Assembly: GCA_003151335.1 (NCBI GenBank)
Contig: PLXE01000098.1
Span: 1-64,000 of the forward strand
DNA length: 64,000 nt
Origin: Acidobacteriaceae bacterium
GTDB taxonomy: Bacteria; Acidobacteriota; Terriglobia; Terriglobales; Acidobacteriaceae
Reading direction: 5' to 3'
The notes beneath the pieces were generated by a model. The model did not search any database. It was not told the DNA's origin and was given only the letters and a program-made list of their open reading frames with translations. The number at the start of each line of letters is the position of its first letter. Positions within the stretch are counted from its first letter, which is position 1. Position numbers and translations under genes: made by a program. This document shows positions 35,504 through 45,052 of this stretch, piece by piece.

Positions 35504-36358
35504 GTGAAACGCATTGCAACCATCGCCGAGATGAAGGCGGCTTGCCGTCAAGTGACCCGTAACGGCAAGACCCTGGGATTGGTGCCCACCATGGGCGCGC
35601 TGCACGAAGGCCATCTTTCGCTGGTGCGCGCGTCGAAGGCACGCTGCGATGTGACCGCCGTTTCCATCTTCGTTAATCCGCTGCAATTCGGTCCGGCGGA
35701 AGATCTGGACAAGTATCCGCGCACCATGGAACGCGATACTGCGCTGCTGGAGCAACTGGGCGCCGACCTTCTGTTCACGCCTGCCGTGGAGGAAATGTAT
35801 CCCCCAAGGGCGCAGACCTACGTGCTGGTCGAGGACCTGAGCAACAAGCTCGACGGCGCATCGCGCCCGGGACATTTCCGCGGCGTGGCGACCGTTGTGG
35901 CAAAGTTGTTCGAAATCGTCCGCCCCGATTTAGCCTTCTTCGGCCAGAAAGACGGTGCACAGGTAGCCGTGCTGCGCAAGTTAGTCAACGATCTCGATAT
36001 GGACCTGGAGGTCGTCGTCTGTCCCATCGTGCGTGAAAAAGACGGATTGGCAATGAGTTCTCGCAACGCCTACCTGACGTCCGAGCAGCGGCAGCAGGCG
36101 ACCGTGTTGTATCGGTCGCTGCTTCGGGTGCAGGCCGCCGTGGACCGTGGCGAGCGCGACTCCGCCAAGCTGATCGAGATTGGCAAGCAGGTGATAGCGC
36201 AAGAGGCTGGAGTGAAGCTGGACTACTTCGCCATCATCGATCTCGACACACTTGACCCAGTTGCAGATGTATCGCACTGCGCGCTGGTGGCCGTCGCGGC
36301 GTACATCGGCAGCACCAGGCTGATCGACAACATCCTGGTCACGCCTTCGTCACGGTAG
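35504..36358 (+). CDS. panC: Pantothenate synthetase
   Basis: This 284-residue enzyme joins pantoate and beta-alanine using ATP. The adenylate-forming signature is seen as P-T-M-G-A-L-H-E-G-H-L, with F-V-N-P-L-Q-F-G, F-F-G-Q-K-D and M-S-S-R-N-A-Y-L. GTG 35504 lies 12 bp after the previous stop. It overlaps the end of the convergent GT39 gene by 9 bp. Confidence 0.97.
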   Translation: MKRIATIAEMKAACRQVTRNGKTLGLVPTMGALHEGHLSLVRASKARCDVTAVSIFVNPLQFGPAEDLDKYPRTMERDTALLEQLGADLLFTPAVEEMYPPRAQTYVLVEDLSNKLDGASRPGHFRGVATVVAKLFEIVRPDLAFFGQKDGAQVAVLRKLVNDLDMDLEVVVCPIVREKDGLAMSSRNAYLTSEQRQQATVLYRSLLRVQAAVDRGERDSAKLIEIGKQVIAQEAGVKLDYFAIIDLDTLDPVADVSHCALVAVAAYIGSTRLIDNILVTPSSR

Positions 36359-37723
36359 CGCCTTTCTTCGTCTGATTCCTGATAACCATGCCCCGCCGAG
36401 AACCAGCACTACCGGGAAGCATTCCAACGTGTAGCGCGGCTCGGGGTTCTCCAGCGTGCCCAGGAACGCCGAGCGCAACAGCACCAACAACAACATGAGG
36501 GCGAGGTAGCGAGGCCGCGGCCCGCGCACCACTCCCATCGCTGCTGCGAACAGGAACAGCAGGTTGAGCACGCCCCAGAGTGTGGCTAGGACGCTGCTCT
36601 GAGTGTCGTTGGCGTACTCCCACCAGCGCGTGTTGAGCGGCAGCATCTCCGTGCGTGGGCGCAGCCACATGTCGGCGATGCGCAGCCCTGGCAACCAGAC
36701 GTAATAGCGAAACGGCGCTTGCTTTATGCGCTCATTCGCCAACTCCGCAAAGCGAGCGTTCAGTTCGGGATCGACAAAATGCGTCTTGGCGTAATCGTTG
36801 AAGATCGCTTGCGTCGTCTCGCGCTGCTGCGCGCTGTCGAACGCCCGCGAGGGTAGGTTCTGCAAAGTAACGTCATCGCCCGGAACCTGCCAGTAAACTT
36901 CCTCGGTGGAAACGTAGTCCACGACCCAGGTTCGCACCCACTTGTCGAAACCAGACGGCACAAACTCGTCCGGATCGCTGGCGTAACGTGGGGCCAGGGG
37001 TTGGAAGCGGTGGAAGTCGCGCCAGTTTCTCGCCGTCCACGGCGCCAGGGGAGCCAGCGAAACCGCCAGTACCAACGCTCCTGCCCAGAACAGACGGGTT
37101 CGCTCCGCTGGTCTTTGCCACATCCGCCACAGGAGGAACAGGCCCAGCGCCACCAGCAAAATGCCACCGTCGGGGCGAAGCAAGATTCCCGCCGCAACGG
37201 CGAAGGCGCAGCCCATCCAGGCGGGCCAGCAGGTGAGCCCTTCTGCCGCGGCCTGGAACGCGGTGACCGCGCAATCGAGCGCCACCGCAGTGAAGAAGAT
37301 GCTCAGCGTCTCAGCCAGCGGAGCCACGGTATAGTTGGCGGTAAAAGGACACAGCGCAGCCAGAAGAAATGCGAACCGCGCCGCTTGCGGCGACACCGTT
37401 CTACGCGCCAGGTCGGCGATGACGAAACAGCCCGCCACGTCGATGGCGATCTGCGCCAACAGGACGGCGTTATAATGCTCGCTTCCAAATAGCGCAAAGC
37501 AGACGGCCAGAAACGCGGGATAGCCGGGCAGGCGAATCCAGGTAGGCCGCGGCCCTTCGGCGTGGGTCAGGCCGTAGATGCCGTGCTGAAGCCAGTTCTT
37601 GGCGATGTCGCCGTAAACCAGCGAATCGCCGGTCACGTGCGGGAATCTAATGTAGAGGAAAATCCGCAGGGCAAAAGCCGCCAGTGTGACCAGCAGGAAG
37701 TACTTCCGAGACTCCCGCAGCAT
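36350..37723 (-). CDS. GT39-like membrane glycosyltransferase
   Basis: The protein is about 457 residues from ATG 37723 (upstream TTG and GTG are in frame but lack a Shine-Dalgarno). The first helix is followed by an acidic G-D-S-L-V-Y motif in the first loop, as in dolichyl-phosphate-mannose/ArnT-type transferases. About ten more helices follow. It likely transfers a sugar from a lipid carrier, but the substrate is unknown. Confidence 0.78.
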   Translation of the reverse strand: MLRESRKYFLLVTLAAFALRIFLYIRFPHVTGDSLVYGDIAKNWLQHGIYGLTHAEGPRPTWIRLPGYPAFLAVCFALFGSEHYNAVLLAQIAIDVAGCFVIADLARRTVSPQAARFAFLLAALCPFTANYTVAPLAETLSIFFTAVALDCAVTAFQAAAEGLTCWPAWMGCAFAVAAGILLRPDGGILLVALGLFLLWRMWQRPAERTRLFWAGALVLAVSLAPLAPWTARNWRDFHRFQPLAPRYASDPDEFVPSGFDKWVRTWVVDYVSTEEVYWQVPGDDVTLQNLPSRAFDSAQQRETTQAIFNDYAKTHFVDPELNARFAELANERIKQAPFRYYVWLPGLRIADMWLRPRTEMLPLNTRWWEYANDTQSSVLATLWGVLNLLFLFAAAMGVVRGPRPRYLALMLLLVLLRSAFLGTLENPEPRYTLECFPVVLVLGGAWLSGIRRRKALP

Positions 37724-37816
37724 GTTCCAGAATGGTGGCAGCTCCGTTCTCCTCAGCGAATTGCGCTCCGGTTCCAGCACGTGGCGAATATAGCAGCTTG
37801 CAGGTAGCAATTAACC

Positions 37817-37903
37817 TTTGGCATTTGGCATTTGGCATTTAGCATTTGGCCGGAGTGCCTTAACTAAATGCCAAATGCCAACTGCTAAGCGCTAACTGCT
37901 GCT
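37817..37903. repeat. Heptamer array B with inverted arms
   Basis: The left arm has five 7-bp units (TTTGGCA x3, TTTAGCA, TTTGGCC), then a 14-bp core, then a right arm of units GCCAAAT, GCCAACT, GCTAAGC, GCTAACT. The arms are largely complementary and could form a long imperfect hairpin. The array lies in the divergent region between the GT39 gene and the polysaccharide enzyme. Confidence 0.85.
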
Positions 37904-37921
37904 ACGATAAATTGGCCCTGC

Positions 37922-40900
37922 ATGCCTAAGTCGAAACCGATTTTCTTCGATCCCGACCGCAAGCGCTGGCGGCGTTTACGCTTGGTGCTCGATACCAGCG
38001 TGATCGTAGCCACGGTGCTGGTGGTGTTTTTTGTCGCGACCATCATTCGTGGATCGTCCGTTCCGGGCGTGCTCCTCCCTTTGGTGAAGAAGCCCTATCA
38101 CGCACTCAAGGAAAGCCAGAAGCACAAGCCGCCACGCCGGCTGAACACCCACCGCAAAACCAAGCGGCCCGCGTCGCAGGTGGTCCTGAACTCCGACGAA
38201 GGCATTCGTGGGGCGTTCTATGTGCAGTGGGACGCGGCCAGCTTCGCCTCGCTGAAAGAGTACTACCCGCAGATCGACCTGCTATTCCCCGAGTGGATGC
38301 ATGCGCTGACCGCGGACGGCCGGCTGCAAGCGGTCACTGAACTGAACACTCTGTACAACATGATGGACGACAAGGGCAAACCACGGTCGGTGGACGAAAG
38401 GGTGATGCCTTTTCTCAAGGGCGAGAAGGCGCAAACTGACGTCCTGCCTCTGGTCAACAACTTCGATCCCATCCGCAATGAGTGGCAACCCGACGTTACC
38501 GCGAAATTCATGGCCGATCCTGCGGCGCGGCAGCGCTTCCGCAGCGAGCTGATGAGTTTCCTGGCCACCGACCAGTACAAAGGCATCACGCTCGACATTG
38601 AGGCCTTCCCCGAAAGCTCACGTGGCGACTTCCGCGCGCTGGTGCAAGAACTCTACGCCGATCTCCACGCCAAGGGCCTGAAGCTATTTATCGCGGTCCC
38701 GGTCAACGACAAGACATTCGACTATCCCGCCATCGCGCAAGTCTCGGATGGCTTGATCCTGATGAACTATGACCAGCACTACCCCGGCGGCGGCTCCGGC
38801 CCAGTCGCCGGGCAGGACTGGTTCCTGAAGAACCTGCAGGACGCCCTCAAAGTCATTCCCAAGGAAAAAATCATTTGCGCGGTCGGCAATTACGGCTACG
38901 ACTGGGCGATGAAAAAGGGCCAAAAGAAAGGCACGCCGCCCGCCGAGGTGCACACCGTCTCGGTCCAGGACGCGTGGCTGGAAGCCGAAGACGCCGAGAC
39001 CGACGTGAATTTCGATGACGATGCCATGAATCCACACTTTGCCTATCTTGACGACAGCAATGTTCGCCACGACGTGTGGTTTCTCGACGGGGTGACCGTG
39101 CTCAACCAGATGCGGGCCGCTCATTCGTTAGGCATCCTCACCTTCGCATTATGGAGGCTGGGTTCGGAAGACCGCTCGCTGTGGGCGGTTTGGGACAAGC
39201 CATACGAGGCCAATGCGCCCGCCAAGCTAAGCACTGTCCCACCTGGTCAGGATGTGGACATTGAAGGGCAAGGCGAAGTCCTGCGCATCGCCTCGCGTCC
39301 GGCCTCCGGCGAACGCACGATCAAGGTCGACGCCAATACCAATCTGGTCAGCGACGAGGTCTTTAAGACCATGCCGTCGCCGTACGTAGTCGATATGTAC
39401 GGCGGGACCTCGCAAAAGAAAGTTGCCATCACCTTCGACGACGGCCCCGACCCGACGTGGACTCCCAAGATTCTCGACGTGCTGAAAGAAAAAAACGTCA
39501 AGGCCACCTTCTTCCTCATTGGGCTGGAAGTTGAAAAGTATCCCAGCGTGGCCAAGCGCATCTACAAGGAAGGCCATGAAATCGGGAACCACACCTTCAC
39601 CCACCCCGATATCAGCAACATCTCCAAGCGCTACTTCGAAGTCGAACTGAACCTCACCGAGCGGTTGTTCGAAGGCAAGCTGGGAGTCAAGCCGGTACTC
39701 TTCCGTCCGCCCTATTCGATTGACCAGGAGCCCGATACCGCCGACCAGGTGCGTCCCTTGGAACTCTCGCAGGACATGGGCTTCATCACCGTGGGAGACA
39801 AGATCGACCCCAACGACTGGCGCGATAATCCGCGGCGTTCCGCCGACGAAATCGTGGCCGACGTGTTCGCCAACCTGCCGCCCTGCCAGCCCGGCAATCT
39901 TAGCTGCGGGAACATCATCCTGTTGCACGATGGGGGCGGTAACCGCAGCCACACCGTCAAGGCGCTGGGCATGATGATCGACGGCCTGAAGGCCCGCGGC
40001 TACGAGATCGTTCCCGTCTCCGATTTGATGGGCAAGACACGCGCGGAAATCATGCCGCCCATTTCCACCAACGAACGCTGGGCCGCCTGGGTCGACGGCC
40101 TTAGCTTCGGTATGTTCGGATTCATCTCGTCGCTCATTATTTTCGTTTTCTTCGTCGGTGACGTGCTGATGAGCGGGCGTCTGGTGCTGGTCGGAACTCT
40201 GGCCATCTTCGACCGTTTCCATCGGCGCAAGAGCAACTTCGACCCCAACTACCAGCCCGCGGTGGCCGTGCTCATCCCCGCCTACAATGAGGCGAAGGTC
40301 ATCGAGCGCACCGTCCGCTCGGTCCTGGATTCCAACTACAAGGACCTGCGAGTGATTGTCATCGACGATGGTTCCACGGACGCGACTCTGGAGGTCACGC
40401 GCGCCGCCTTCCAGAATGAGATCGCGGCCGGCCGGGTCACGGTGTTGACCAAGCCGAACTCCGGCAAAGCCGACGCGCTGAACTTCGGACTGGAGCAAGT
40501 GACGGAAGAGCTGTTTGTCGGCATCGACGCCGACACCCTGGTTGCGCCCGATGCGATCTCGAAATTGGTTCCGCACTTTAGCAATCCGCGGGTGGCAGCC
40601 ATGGCGGGCAATGCCAAAGTCGGCAATCGGGTCAATCTGTGGACCCGCTGGCAGGCGTTGGAGTACATCACCAGCCAGAACTTTGAACGACGCGCGCTCA
40701 ACACGCTCAACGCCGTGAGCGTGGTCCCCGGCGCCATTGGCGCATGGCGCACCGCTGCGGTTCGCGCCGCCGGCGGTTATCAGCACGACACCGTCGCCGA
40801 AGACGCCGATCTGACCATGGCGCTTCTCCAGGCCGGCTATTGGGTCAATTACGAGGACCGCGCGCTGGCCTACACCGAGGCGCCAACCAAGGCGCGCGGG

Positions 40901-41416
40901 CTGATGCGGCAACGCTTCCGCTGGTCCTTCGGCATCATGCAGTCGGTGTGGAAGCACCGCGCGGCGGTGAAGCAGAAAGGAGCTCTGGGCTGGGTCGCGA
41001 TACCCAACATGGTCATCTTCCAGGTCCTGCTGCCGTTGGTTTCGCCGTTCATCGACATCATGTTCGTCGCCGGCACCGCCATCTACTTCGTTGACAAGTA
41101 CCGGCATCCCGAGTCGGCCAATCCGGCCGATTTCCACAAGTTGGTAGTGTACTTCGCATTGTTCATGGTGATTGATTTCATCGCATCGGCCATAGCCTTC
41201 ACGCTGGAACGGCAACAGCCCGGCGGAAAACGCGACTTCCTCTTGCTGGGCCATGTCTGGCTGCAACGCTTCGCCTATCGCCAACTGTTCTCCCTGGTAC
41301 TCCTCAAGACGCTCAAGCGCGCCATGGAAGGGGGCAGCTTTGCCTGGGACAAGCTGGAGCGCACGGCCAGCGTGAGGCAGCCCGTTGCCGTACGCCGTGA
41401 AAGAGAGGCGCATTGA
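37922..41416 (+). CDS. GH18 / polysaccharide deacetylase / GT2 three-domain enzyme
   Basis: This 1164-residue protein has a membrane helix (about 22-43), a GH18-like domain (about 95-430; T-L-D-I-E motif at 223-227), a NodB deacetylase (about 497-700; T-F-D-D-G-P-D, H557 and H561 in G-N-H-T-F-T-H, R-P-P-Y), a helix (about 728-750) and a GT2 synthase (about 778-1005; D-D-G-S-T-D, D-A-D, E-D-A-D, Q-R-F-R-W) ending in membrane helices. It would make, deacetylate and trim a GlcNAc polymer, like PgaC and PgaB in one chain. The polymer identity is inferred. Confidence 0.9.
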   Translation: MPKSKPIFFDPDRKRWRRLRLVLDTSVIVATVLVVFFVATIIRGSSVPGVLLPLVKKPYHALKESQKHKPPRRLNTHRKTKRPASQVVLNSDEGIRGAFYVQWDAASFASLKEYYPQIDLLFPEWMHALTADGRLQAVTELNTLYNMMDDKGKPRSVDERVMPFLKGEKAQTDVLPLVNNFDPIRNEWQPDVTAKFMADPAARQRFRSELMSFLATDQYKGITLDIEAFPESSRGDFRALVQELYADLHAKGLKLFIAVPVNDKTFDYPAIAQVSDGLILMNYDQHYPGGGSGPVAGQDWFLKNLQDALKVIPKEKIICAVGNYGYDWAMKKGQKKGTPPAEVHTVSVQDAWLEAEDAETDVNFDDDAMNPHFAYLDDSNVRHDVWFLDGVTVLNQMRAAHSLGILTFALWRLGSEDRSLWAVWDKPYEANAPAKLSTVPPGQDVDIEGQGEVLRIASRPASGERTIKVDANTNLVSDEVFKTMPSPYVVDMYGGTSQKKVAITFDDGPDPTWTPKILDVLKEKNVKATFFLIGLEVEKYPSVAKRIYKEGHEIGNHTFTHPDISNISKRYFEVELNLTERLFEGKLGVKPVLFRPPYSIDQEPDTADQVRPLELSQDMGFITVGDKIDPNDWRDNPRRSADEIVADVFANLPPCQPGNLSCGNIILLHDGGGNRSHTVKALGMMIDGLKARGYEIVPVSDLMGKTRAEIMPPISTNERWAAWVDGLSFGMFGFISSLIIFVFFVGDVLMSGRLVLVGTLAIFDRFHRRKSNFDPNYQPAVAVLIPAYNEAKVIERTVRSVLDSNYKDLRVIVIDDGSTDATLEVTRAAFQNEIAAGRVTVLTKPNSGKADALNFGLEQVTEELFVGIDADTLVAPDAISKLVPHFSNPRVAAMAGNAKVGNRVNLWTRWQALEYITSQNFERRALNTLNAVSVVPGAIGAWRTAAVRAAGGYQHDTVAEDADLTMALLQAGYWVNYEDRALAYTEAPTKARGLMRQRFRWSFGIMQSVWKHRAAVKQKGALGWVAIPNMVIFQVLLPLVSPFIDIMFVAGTAIYFVDKYRHPESANPADFHKLVVYFALFMVIDFIASAIAFTLERQQPGGKRDFLLLGHVWLQRFAYRQLFSLVLLKTLKRAMEGGSFAWDKLERTASVRQPVAVRREREAH

Positions 41417-41429
41417 TGGAGGCCAACTG

Positions 41430-42368
41430 GTGAGTCCTGCTCCGAAGCCCGCGCTGGATATGAGCGTCAACGTCGCGGGAATTACGCTCAAGAACCCGGT
41501 CATGGCCGCCAGTGGAAGTTTTGGCTATGGCGTGGAATTTGAGGACGTGGTCACGCTTGATCGGCTGGGCGGGTTCGTGGTGAAGGGACTTTCCCGCGAG
41601 CCGATGGCGGGCAATCCGCCGCCGCGGCTGTTTGAAACCGCTGCCGGCATGCTCAATGCCATCGGACTGCAGAATGTTGGGGTGCGGGCCTTTCTGGAAG
41701 AGAAGCTGCCGCTTCTGAACAACATCAAGAACATCGTTTTCTTCTGCAACGTCTTTGGGCATTCGCAGGAGGAGTACGAAGACGTGGTGCGTATGCTCAA
41801 CGACGGCGCGGGCATCGCCGCTTACGAGCTGAATGTTTCCTGTCCCAACACCAAGTGCGGCGGAATCAGCTTTGGCAGTGACCCCAAAATGCTGTTTGAC
41901 GTGGTCAGCGCAGTGAAAAAGATCGCCACCCGTCCGCTCATCGTGAAACTCTCGCCCAACGTCACCAGCATTCCGGAGGTGGCGCGGGCTGCTGAGGAAG
42001 CGGGCGCCGACGCCATCTCGCTGGTCAATACTTTTGTGGCCATGGCGATTGACGCCGAAACCCGCAAACCGCGCATCTCCAACGTCACTGCCGGACTGTC
42101 CGGCCCCGCCATCAAACCGATTGCCCTGCGCATGGTGTGGGAAGCGGCCAAAGCGGTGAAGATACCCGTCATCGGAATCGGCGGCATCAGCACCGCTGAA
42201 GATGTGGTTGAGTTCCTGCTGGCCGGCGCAACCGCCATCGAGGTCGGTACGGTGAATTTCTGGGACCCATGCGCCTGTGAGACGCTGGTCGATTCCCTGG
42301 AGAAATGGTGCCTGGAACACCGCATTGAGAAAATTAGCGATCTGACTGGCGGGTTGACGATCGAGTAA
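41430..42368 (+). CDS. pyrD: Dihydroorotate dehydrogenase
   Basis: This protein of about 312 residues starts at GTG 41430, which has GGAGG seven bases upstream. An earlier frame to 41385 overlaps the previous gene. Class-1 (B-type) motifs are seen: N-P-V-M-A-A-S-G-S-F-G-Y-G, E-L-N-V-S-C-P-N-T-K (catalytic Cys), K-L-S-P-N-V and G-I-G-G-I-S. It makes orotate in pyrimidine synthesis. Type 1B enzymes need a PyrK partner, not present in this window. Confidence 0.95.
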   Translation: MSPAPKPALDMSVNVAGITLKNPVMAASGSFGYGVEFEDVVTLDRLGGFVVKGLSREPMAGNPPPRLFETAAGMLNAIGLQNVGVRAFLEEKLPLLNNIKNIVFFCNVFGHSQEEYEDVVRMLNDGAGIAAYELNVSCPNTKCGGISFGSDPKMLFDVVSAVKKIATRPLIVKLSPNVTSIPEVARAAEEAGADAISLVNTFVAMAIDAETRKPRISNVTAGLSGPAIKPIALRMVWEAAKAVKIPVIGIGGISTAEDVVEFLLAGATAIEVGTVNFWDPCACETLVDSLEKWCLEHRIEKISDLTGGLTIE

Positions 42369-42682: not shown

Positions 42683-45052
42683 ATGCCAACCCATCGTCGC
42701 GCTCTTTCCGCGTTGATTCTTATTGTCAGCTTCGCCGCCCTATCGCTGCCCGTCTTCGCGCAACAAGTGATTGCGACCGTACCGGTAGGCTTAGAACCCG
42801 ACAGTTCAGCGGTCAACACGGTCACCAATAAGATCTACGTAGCGAATCAGACCTGCCCTAGTTATCCCTGCCTAGGCAATGGGACGGTGACCGTCGTTGA
42901 CGGTGCGACCAACAACACCCTCTCCGTCAATGTGGGATACTCCTCCTACGGCATGGCGGTCAACCCGGCGACCAACAAAATGTACGTGCCAAATAGCTGC
43001 GGTAACGATCCAAACTGCGCGAGCGGCGGTACGGTGTCGGTGATCGACGGCGCCAGCAATACTGTCATTGCCACAGTCACCGTCGAGAATCACCCCTGGG
43101 TTGCAGTGGTCAACTCCGCGACCAACAGAATCTACGTCCTGAACGCTTGCGGCACCGACCCTTCCTGCGGTACCTACAACGGCACGGTATCGGTGATCGA
43201 TGGCGTGAGCAATACCGTTGTTGCCACCGTCCCCGTTGGGGTCAACGCTCACTGGCCGGTGGTCAACTCGGTCACCAACAAGATCTACGTTCCAAATGTG
43301 TGCGGCAACGATCCCTGCTTTCCCCCCTACGGTACCGGGACGGTGACGGTAATCGATGGCGCCACCAACAGTTCCACCTCCGTCAACGTGGGGATCCAGC
43401 CCTTCGCTTTAGACGTCAACACGGTGACGAACAAGATCTATGTCGCCAATCAATGCGGCGACGACCCCTACTGTAACAGGACCGCCACCATGACGGTGAT
43501 TGACGGCGCCACCCTTGCCACCACCGATGTCCCCATCGGCGGATATTATCCTCAGGCGTTAGCGGTCAATTCAGTCACCAACAAGATTTATGTTCCCGAC
43601 TATTGCGGCTACGATCCTTCCTGCCAATACGAGCTCAATGGGACGGTGTCGGTGATCGACGGTGGAACCCTTACTTACACCAGCATTCCTGTCGGGGTCG
43701 AGCCGGACACCATGGCGGTCAACTCGGTCACTAACAAAATGTATGTTGCCAACCGATGCGGCATCGATCCCTCCTGTCAGAGCAACGGGACAGTAACAAT
43801 CATTGATGGCACTACCCTTATGTTCACCAACATTGGCGTCGGGCACGACCCCCAGGGCTTGAGCCTCAACTCCGTCACCAACAGAGTTTACGTCCCCAAC
43901 TTTAACGACGACACCGTCTCGGTGATTGCCGACACTCCTCCTACCGCTCTGCAATTTGTCCCGCTGACCGCACCGTGTCGGGCAGTCGATACCCGGCCGG
44001 ATCGCGGTGGCAATGGGCCGATTGTGGGTGGTACCTTCCAAAACTTCTCCATCCAGCAGGAGGGAGGCTGCAACATTCCCCCCGCCGCAGCCGCCTATTC
44101 CCTGAACGTCTCGGTGGTTCCGAACGGACCGCTGGGCTATCTAACGGTGTGGCCCACCGGACAGCCGCGGCCTTTGGCTTCCGCTTTGAACTCGCTGGAT
44201 GGCCGCATCAAGGCCAATGCGGCGATTGTGCCGGCCGGCGCCAGCGGCGACGTCAGCGTGTACGCCACCAACACGACCAATGTGATTCTCGATGTCAACG
44301 GCTACTTCGCGCCGGTCTCTGGTTCCACGCTGGCCTTCTATCCTCTGACGCCCTGCCGCGTCGCGGACACGCGCAAGAGCACCTTTCCCCAAGGCCTGGG
44401 GCCGCCGTCCCTCACGGGCGGCCAGGAACGGCAATTCCCCATCCTGAATGCCACCACAACCTGCAACATTCCCGCGAGCGGCGTCGCCGCATACTCGCTG
44501 AACTTCTCGGTCGTGCCCCACGGCTCGCTGTTTTACCTGACGGTGTGGCCCACGGGTGAAACCCGGCCTACGGTTTCCACGTTGAACGATGTCCCGGGTC
44601 AGATCGTCGCCAATGCCGCTATCGTGACTGCGGGCACCAGCGGCGATGTCTCGGTCTATCCCACCAACGACACCGACTTGGTAATCGACATCAATGGCTA
44701 CTTCGCGGCAGCGGGTCCAAGCGGACTTTCGCTGTATGGAGTATCGCCTTGCCGGGTCATCGACACGCGCAAGATTGGCAGCGGTCAGCCCTTCAATGGA
44801 CTTCTGAGTCCGCCGGTCGATGTGGTAAACAGTCCATGCGAACCGCCGCCCACGGCGCAGGCCTATGTCTTCAACGCCAGCGTGGTGCCGATCGGCGCGC
44901 TGGGCTATCTCACGCTGTGGCCAGACGGTGCTACCCAGCCGCTGGTTTCGACGCTGAATGCACTGGACGGGTCGATCTCGTCCAACATGGCCATCGCGTG
45001 CCCAGCACCGACGGAACGGTCGACGCTTATGCGTCTGGGCTCACGCAACTGA
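42683..45052 (+). CDS. YVTN beta-propeller surface protein, frameshifted near its end
   Basis: This 789-residue protein has a signal peptide, about eight YVTN-type blades (about 35-415; V-N-x-x-T-N-K-I-Y-V followed by V-I-D-G), most with an inserted C-G-x-D-P-x-C loop, and three modules of about 120 residues that are paralogous to the gene at 1-1077. A CG duplication at 44995-44998 shifts the frame. The last 16 codons are out of frame; without it the protein would run to TAG 45082-45084 and end in S-S-Y-F-A-P like its paralogue. Secreted or surface-attached; partner unknown. Confidence 0.85.
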   Translation: MPTHRRALSALILIVSFAALSLPVFAQQVIATVPVGLEPDSSAVNTVTNKIYVANQTCPSYPCLGNGTVTVVDGATNNTLSVNVGYSSYGMAVNPATNKMYVPNSCGNDPNCASGGTVSVIDGASNTVIATVTVENHPWVAVVNSATNRIYVLNACGTDPSCGTYNGTVSVIDGVSNTVVATVPVGVNAHWPVVNSVTNKIYVPNVCGNDPCFPPYGTGTVTVIDGATNSSTSVNVGIQPFALDVNTVTNKIYVANQCGDDPYCNRTATMTVIDGATLATTDVPIGGYYPQALAVNSVTNKIYVPDYCGYDPSCQYELNGTVSVIDGGTLTYTSIPVGVEPDTMAVNSVTNKMYVANRCGIDPSCQSNGTVTIIDGTTLMFTNIGVGHDPQGLSLNSVTNRVYVPNFNDDTVSVIADTPPTALQFVPLTAPCRAVDTRPDRGGNGPIVGGTFQNFSIQQEGGCNIPPAAAAYSLNVSVVPNGPLGYLTVWPTGQPRPLASALNSLDGRIKANAAIVPAGASGDVSVYATNTTNVILDVNGYFAPVSGSTLAFYPLTPCRVADTRKSTFPQGLGPPSLTGGQERQFPILNATTTCNIPASGVAAYSLNFSVVPHGSLFYLTVWPTGETRPTVSTLNDVPGQIVANAAIVTAGTSGDVSVYPTNDTDLVIDINGYFAAAGPSGLSLYGVSPCRVIDTRKIGSGQPFNGLLSPPVDVVNSPCEPPPTAQAYVFNASVVPIGALGYLTLWPDGATQPLVSTLNALDGSISSNMAIACPAPTERSTLMRLGSRN

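Follow-up and report, generated by a model that had tools for sequence, protein, structure and literature searches.

Polymers of N-acetylglucosamine (GlcNAc) act as biofilm glue, and in the best-known machines that make poly-GlcNAc, several proteins share the tasks of synthesis, deacetylation and hydrolysis. In Streptomyces, MatB combines an extracellular CE4 deacetylase domain, a membrane helix and a cytoplasmic GT2 glycosyltransferase domain and is reported to make poly-N-acetylglucosamine (PNAG); its CE4 domain is described as nearest to PgdA and NodB and its GT2 domain as nearest to PgaC (PMC5972031). GT2 and deacetylase domains are also reported to co-occur with glycoside hydrolase (GH) domains, with the GH18-CE4-GT2 layout not named in the part of that text seen (PMC4928363). 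Here, we describe a gene of this layout in a 64,000-nucleotide stretch of the genome of a soil bacterium of the Acidobacteriaceae (GenBank assembly GCA_003151335.1, contig PLXE01000098.1, positions 1 to 64,000), which is referred to below as the window. An uninterrupted open reading frame (ORF) with an ATG start, 37922-41416 on the plus strand, encodes a fusion of 1164 amino acids (aa) in which a GH18 domain (aa ~92-436) is followed by a CE4/NodB domain (aa ~495-706) and a GT2 domain (aa ~779-1012). A single protein thereby unites GT2, CE4 and GH18 domains that each have their catalytic residues, and a hydrophobic helix separates GT2 from the GH18 and CE4 domains.

The original prediction had placed hydrolase, NodB and GT2 domains in a single protein, which is borne out by the ORF coordinates, by three Pfam matches above the curated cut-offs and by an AlphaFold2 model. 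Glyco_hydro_18 was matched at aa 196-414 (53.9 bits, cut-off 29.6), which places the first domain in the GH18 family, Polysacc_deac_1 at aa 495-600 (122.8 bits, cut-off 23.1) and Glyco_tranf_2_3 at aa 779-1004 (115.1 bits, cut-off 27). Relatives of the fusion are likewise unbroken ORFs of similar length. The model, built from an alignment of 44 rows from which L119, L129, L132 and L137 were excluded because the match overran the stop, has a mean predicted local distance difference test score of 86.2 and a predicted template modelling (pTM) score of 0.66. Its GH18 barrel (aa 92-436, 38195-39229; compared over aa 93-430) gave VIA Z scores of 34.2 to chitinase 5jh8 and 33.4 to SleL 4s3j. Foldseek matched the CE4 part (aa 495-706, 39404-40039) to the Bc1960 deacetylase (4l1g/5o6y), and GT2 (aa 779-1012, 40256-40957) together with the C-terminal helices resembles hyaluronan synthase (Z 31.8 to 8snc).

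To count residues, we used 194 unique full-length rows: 215 loci had a match, 7 partial ones (<1040 aa) were excluded, and the remaining 208 collapsed to 193, to which the window copy was added; the own-genome copies and paralogues L001-L010 and L140-L156 were not included. An earlier set of 98 rows was without L117 and L136, where a longer ORF lies antisense; both loci were covered in the comparison of gene neighbourhoods. In the window, the GH18 barrel carries D225 and E227 in the motif GITLDIE, Y283 and D284 in MNYD, and W300 and W411, so that the DxE signature is present, and E227 aligns with the glutamate of the DFE motifs in 5jh8, YdhD 3cz8 and SleL 4s3j. The CE4 domain has the TFDD, HxxxH, RPPY and LHD motifs of its family, with D506, H557, H561 and R595 found in 194/194 rows and D507, H669 and D670 in 193/194. 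In one relative (L242, genome G424), the fusion appears as two consecutive matches within a single contig (query 4-644, then 682-1152), and H669 and D670 are aligned as gaps. The GT2 domain shows the DD (D815, D816), DxD (DAD, 869-871), ED (EDAD, 960-963) and QxxRW (QRFRW, 997-1001) motifs and the flanking membrane helices of a processive synthase; D816, D869, D871, E960, D961, D963, Q997 and W1001 are invariant in all 194 rows, and D815 is present in 189. A GH18 region lacking all catalytic residues, the outcome that the original prediction had named as fatal to it, is not what the window copy shows, since all three active sites are present. The window protein is a real, conserved and probably active polysaccharide synthase/deacetylase with a GH18 domain.

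How this chain sits in the membrane can be predicted from hydropathy and from the model. An N-terminal membrane helix (aa 14-43, 37961-38050) has a hydropathy of 2.57 at aa 21-39 and is flanked by six Lys/Arg residues before it and one after it. The CE4-GT2 junction is one continuous model helix (aa 716-766, 40067-40219), hydrophobic over aa 727-766. Behind GT2, the C-terminal helices (aa 1021-1136, 40982-41329) include two hydrophobic segments (aa 1021-1061 and 1068-1094), and the model helix at aa 1102-1136 has no hydropathy flag. The GH18-NodB junction consists in the model of a small, conserved beta-rich linker (aa 437-494, 39230-39403; strands 444-494) with no membrane helix. Of the membrane helices proposed between the domains, the one between NodB and GT2 therefore stands, and the one between GH18 and NodB does not. 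The charge bias at the first helix and the continuous CE4-GT2 helix fit an arrangement with GH18 and CE4 outside and GT2 inside.

We consider it moderately probable that the fusion is a one-chain, membrane-spanning polysaccharide synthase-modifier. In such a machine, the cytoplasmic GT2 domain would polymerise GlcNAc from UDP-GlcNAc, and its own membrane helices would conduct the chain across the membrane; CE4 would partly de-N-acetylate the emerging chain, and the adjacent GH18 barrel would bind and guide it. With an intact glutamate, as in the window, GH18 could also trim or release the chain. The product would probably be partly deacetylated poly-GlcNAc, by analogy with MatB, in either a beta-1,6 or a beta-1,4 linkage.

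Another important question is whether cutting by the GH18 domain is general. Position 227 is Glu (E) in 182 of the 194 rows, Gln (Q) in 11 and Lys (K) in one (L127, Hyphomicrobiaceae), so that the DxE signature is lost in the 11 Q rows and in L127. D225 is kept in 191/194 rows, being absent from two Q rows and from L093 (Edaphobacter, with His in its place and the Glu intact), D284 in 187/194 and W411 in 189/194. In a FastTree phylogeny of the CE4 and GT2 columns, from which GH18 was excluded, all 11 Q rows (11/11) form one exclusive clade with support of 100, and two changes account for the whole E227 pattern. Among the named members of this Q clade are Granulicella paludicola, G. sapmiensis and Bryocella elongata. 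A metagenome-assembled genome (MAG) called Granulicella (L086) falls outside the clade and has kept the Glu, so the clade name does not span everything called Granulicella.

There are 24 near-invariant GH18 positions (conserved in at least 97% of the 183 non-Q rows), and for 19 of them no more than one of the 11 Q rows deviates. The other five are kept less often: D225 in 9/11, E227 in 0/11, D284 in 4/11, and W300 and W411 in 7/11 each; D225, E227 and D284 are part of the GH18 motifs, while W300 and W411 presumably line the cleft. The near-invariant positions of the other parts are all kept (CE4 35/35, GT2 60/60, linker 5/5 at aa 437-489). In a comparison of 11 Q rows with 16 rows of the sister clade, the ratio of nonsynonymous divergence (dN) in GH18 to that in GT2 was 2.43 in the Q clade and 2.42 in the sister clade. 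In a Pfam scan of two Q-clade proteins, L081 still matched GH18 (42.6 bits), whereas L071 had no GH18 match at 1e-3. With the catalytic positions lost and the GH18/GT2 ratio equal to that of the sister clade, cutting seems dispensable there and the domain does not; we read the Q clade as having lost catalysis while the GH18 domain is still under selection. What is new here is that hydrolysis by GH18 appears separable from the role for which the domain is retained. In Granulicella and Bryocella, GH18 may accordingly be described as a putative binding-only pseudo-hydrolase module. In one Q-clade protein (L074), CE4 D507 is Gly and GH18 E227 is Gln, and possibly neither the hydrolase nor the deacetylase is active.

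A Glu-to-Gln change is also the crystallographers' way to trap chitin oligomers, and the structural neighbours of the GH18 domain include an E115Q chitinase with NAG4 (3alg). We tentatively suggest, at somewhat less than an even chance, that the lasting job of GH18 is non-hydrolytic, namely that it grips the nascent chain and steers it past the deacetylase, with cutting as an option. If so, the Granulicella/Bryocella clade is a natural Glu-to-Gln series in which selection on the domain, measured against that on the synthase domain, is as strong as in the active sister clade or stronger. Several observations pull the other way. The mean share of near-invariant GH18 positions kept is 0.89 in the Q clade and 0.99 in the sister clade when the sister rows are also taken out of the reference (CE4 1.00 and 1.00, GT2 0.98 and 0.99). 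The ratio of dN to synonymous divergence (dS) is slightly higher in the Q clade throughout (GH18 0.18 vs 0.14, CE4 0.12 vs 0.08, GT2 0.09 vs 0.07), with dS high or saturated in many pairs. Finally, an E-to-Q change reduces activity and need not abolish it.

A different role for GH18 would be that of a peptidoglycan or cortex-type hydrolase, like SleL, YaaH or YdhD, which opens the wall for polymer exit. The sequence relatives of the domain with known structures do include YdhD and SleL, but the best match, 5jh8, is annotated as a chitinase, Pfam found no peptidoglycan-binding domain in the fusion at E 0.001, and the loss of Glu in a whole clade that retained the domain fits a binding role better; we regard this explanation as very improbable. 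For a synthase-modifier, coupling of synthesis and modification across the membrane, as originally proposed, would be the most economical reading of the model and is partly supported: the single chain, the full set of motifs and the predicted topology fit it, but cutting is not a general part of it, the Q clade having lost the Glu.

These data raise the question of which known synthases the domains resemble. Single domains were compared by BLAST with fetched references, and members of the family itself were left out of the rankings. The closest reference for the GT2 domain was a CE4-GT2 protein of Streptomyces (40% identity), followed by proteins of Halorussus (34%) and Roseomonas (37% over a shorter stretch); its identity was 35% to PgaC, 29% to IcaA and 30-31% to NodC. 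For the CE4 domain, this Streptomyces protein again came first (43%), with NodB next (33-38%). The Streptomyces protein comes from an unannotated plasmid record and need not be MatB, and BLAST found no GH18 match in it at E 1. The motifs AED.DLT and QR.RW..G..Q..WKH are common to the family and the Streptomyces protein, whereas three NodC proteins carry GEDRHLT and QQLRWARS instead. E. coli PgaB matched the CE4 domain only at E 0.7 and the GH18 domain not at all at E 1, and IcaB had no match to the CE4 domain at E 1. The original prediction had pointed to poly-GlcNAc systems that separate these functions in PgaB and PgaC; by these comparisons the fusion is not a rearrangement of PgaB and PgaC, the deacetylase being closer to NodB. 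A PgaB-type identity of the hydrolase was also rejected, since Pfam assigns the domain to GH18, BLAST finds no match to PgaB, and the PgaB hydrolase belongs to GH153 (PMC5933820). Among the best 25 of 37 NCBIfam families, none exceeded its cut-off: the best for the deacetylase was PdaB (148 bits, cut-off 237), and the NodC model gave 96 bits with GT2.

The product could instead be a beta-1,4 polymer or oligosaccharide of the chitin/chitosan type, made in the manner of NodC and NodB, with GH18 as a chitinase that sets chain length. The closeness of CE4 to NodB after the Streptomyces protein, the chitinases and SleL among the structural neighbours of GH18, and the intact GH18 Glu in the 182 rows speak for this. 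Nevertheless, GT2 scores higher with the PgaC_IcaA model (175 bits) than with that of NodC and lacks the two NodC motifs, NodC has a long branch in the tree of GT2 domains (as do PgaC and IcaA), and the clade-wide loss of Glu suggests that some members can do without cutting. We hold a beta-1,4 product of this kind to be possible but doubtful.

The poly-GlcNAc synthase-modifier faces difficulties of its own, which must be set against it. The best NCBIfam family for GT2, PgaC_IcaA (TIGR03937), reached 175-178 bits against a cut-off of 422, below the level of an equivalog. In a quick tree of GT2, the Streptomyces and Halorussus proteins fall within the family and PgaC/IcaA and NodC sit on very long branches, so that, given these long reference branches and modest support, the placement of GT2 is weak. 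In the own draft genome, the best match to the PgaA porin model had 37.1 bits (cut-off 366.65); that to the PgaB model had 39.4 bits (cut-off 321.9), and a PgaABCD set is thus not recognised there. GH18 and CE4 enzymes of the NodB/PgdA type classically act on beta-1,4 chains, which fits poorly with a beta-1,6 product, and the pTM score leaves the relative placement of the domains in the model loose.

The fusion architecture is widespread, and it is neither a one-off nor a new kind of system. The own genome, a draft of 121 contigs with a stated completeness of 100, has 12 matches to the fusion, of which a single one is full length. When 297 genomes of the phylum were sampled, a match at E <= 1e-200 was present in 52, comprising 31/31 genomes of the family of the window and 21/266 of the others; a denser sample of this family gave such matches in 126/150 genomes (97/110 good assemblies), some of them truncated where a contig stops. 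Scanning genome contigs gave at least 594 stretches with at least 580 relatives, of which the best 80 were taken. These are mostly from Acidobacteriota, the nearest named relative being an Acidobacteriaceae MAG (L060, 85%), with others from a cyanobacterium, Competibacter, Accumulibacter, Dyella, Rhodanobacter, Frateuria, Hyphomicrobium, Caulobacter, Phenylobacterium, Hephaestia, a Planctomycetota MAG, Taylorbacteria and Bacillus sp. J33. Plasmid records yielded 25 matches at 1e-60, 21 of them with at least 80% coverage, in Sphingobium, Sulfitobacter, Novosphingobium, Sphingomonas, Deinococcus, Prevotella and Limimaricola; matches of half length or less came from Streptomyces and one Sphingomonas. 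The annotation of 19 of the 25 names a glycosyltransferase only. Among 22 phage records with a match at 1e-20, none reached 80% coverage. Taken together, the contig and plasmid scans place near-full-length copies in Cyanobacteria, Pseudomonadota, Bacillota, Bacteroidota, Deinococcota and Planctomycetota; the comparison with relatives thus confirms the fusion layout in several phyla and shows that it is not new.

In Sulfitobacter sp. OXR-159 (L250, 3602-7015), the fusion is annotated as two genes, with insertion sequence (IS) genes nearby. A working split homologue was considered and rejected: the first ORF ends inside CE4, its main alignment covering the 222-residue CE4 query only as far as residue 144, and with the IS genes so close we read it as a broken, probably decaying gene.

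In the window, the fusion gene and a GT-C glycosyltransferase gene (36350-37810, minus strand; Pfam PMT_2, 54 bits) diverge from a shared intergenic region. The acidobacterial clade of the window comprises 52 loci on the FastTree phylogeny, 43 of them with at least 1.5 kb upstream, and 40 of these 43 have the GT-C gene upstream on the opposite strand (it is missing in L061, L130 and L132). Outside the clade, this arrangement was seen in 2/42 loci (L047 and L105), and in L048, L050 and L129 the GT-C gene lies downstream on the same strand. That the two genes stay close although their arrangement changes suggests that they are functionally linked in these Acidobacteria. Such a link could mean that the fusion and the GT-C protein act on a lipid-linked or cell-envelope glycan and not on a free exopolysaccharide, and the presence of the fusion in Bacillus sp. 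J33, which has no outer membrane, would suit this too. Against it, the QxxRW motif typical of processive synthases is present in GT2, and the GT-C profile matched only 5/48 loci outside the clade, the other 43 giving no match on stretches some of which are short; the GT-C gene is thus not an essential or required close neighbour, and we judge the glycan alternative to be unlikely. In L102, L104, L113, L116, L125 and L136, outside Acidobacteria, one large neighbour each was scanned and gave no match to any GT-C family; these neighbours had peptidase M3, F5/8 type C, PG_binding_1 with Pur_ac_phosph_N, MASE1, LigD/DNA ligase, and a chemotaxis receptor with PAS.

The shared intergenic region contains an inverted repeat of TTTGGCA-like units (37818-37886). 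An exact 14-mer of it has three copies in the genome, all within the repeat, and with up to two mismatches it has six matches in the window, five of them in the repeat, against 0.59 expected; the repeat is a possible operator or hairpin. A scan of 37600-38000 gave one sigma-70-like promoter site against 0.2 expected and no terminator, and no Rfam model reached its gathering score anywhere in the window. The gene order over 35504-41416 is panC, GT-C and the fusion. In Prevotella nigrescens (L253, 1951-7051), panC also lies just upstream of the fusion, in the order panC, aspartate decarboxylase and fusion, and this shared proximity is probably a coincidence. Downstream in the window are a dihydroorotate dehydrogenase gene (41385-42368; Pfam) and a gene for a 789-aa protein with YncE-like beta-propeller repeats (42683-45052).

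A single chain with all three domains across phyla offers a compact test bed for the coupling of synthesis and modification, in which the Q clade provides natural controls for telling cutting and chain handling apart. Most genomes sampled from the family of the window have a GH18 that is part of a synthase fusion and is probably little tied to chitin feeding. Acidobacterial GH18 genes have been counted as chitinases, in a table that gives none for Bryocella elongata in the portion of the source seen (PMC6252331). The family is widespread, and no experimental paper on it was found in the open-access literature, where no title or abstract opening among those listed names a GH18-CE4-GT2 protein; papers outside that literature may exist. 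The CDD families GH18_trifunctional (cd06549) and CE4_GT2-like (cd10962) presumably describe the same, uncharacterised GH18-NodB-GT2 architecture. These family names are absent from the main text of PMC6902481, and GH18 is not mentioned in the part of PMC9693552 seen.

Among known systems, the staphylococcal IcaA/IcaB pair likewise joins a GT2 synthase with a deacetylase for PNAG, but on separate proteins, and its IcaB is the one without a match to the CE4 domain of the fusion. Rhizobial NodB and NodC combine a NodB-type deacetylase with a GT2 GlcNAc polymerase, yet they are encoded by separate genes, differ in their GT2 motifs and have no GH18 among the listed neighbours. The E. coli PgaABCD system has the same activities (synthase, deacetylase and hydrolase), distributed over separate proteins and with a GH153 hydrolase in place of GH18. 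MatB is reported with two functional domains and no GH18 (PMC5972031), but it shares with the fusion the order of CE4, membrane helix and GT2 in one chain. It is, by analogy, the closest characterised machine and would be the best guide to function.

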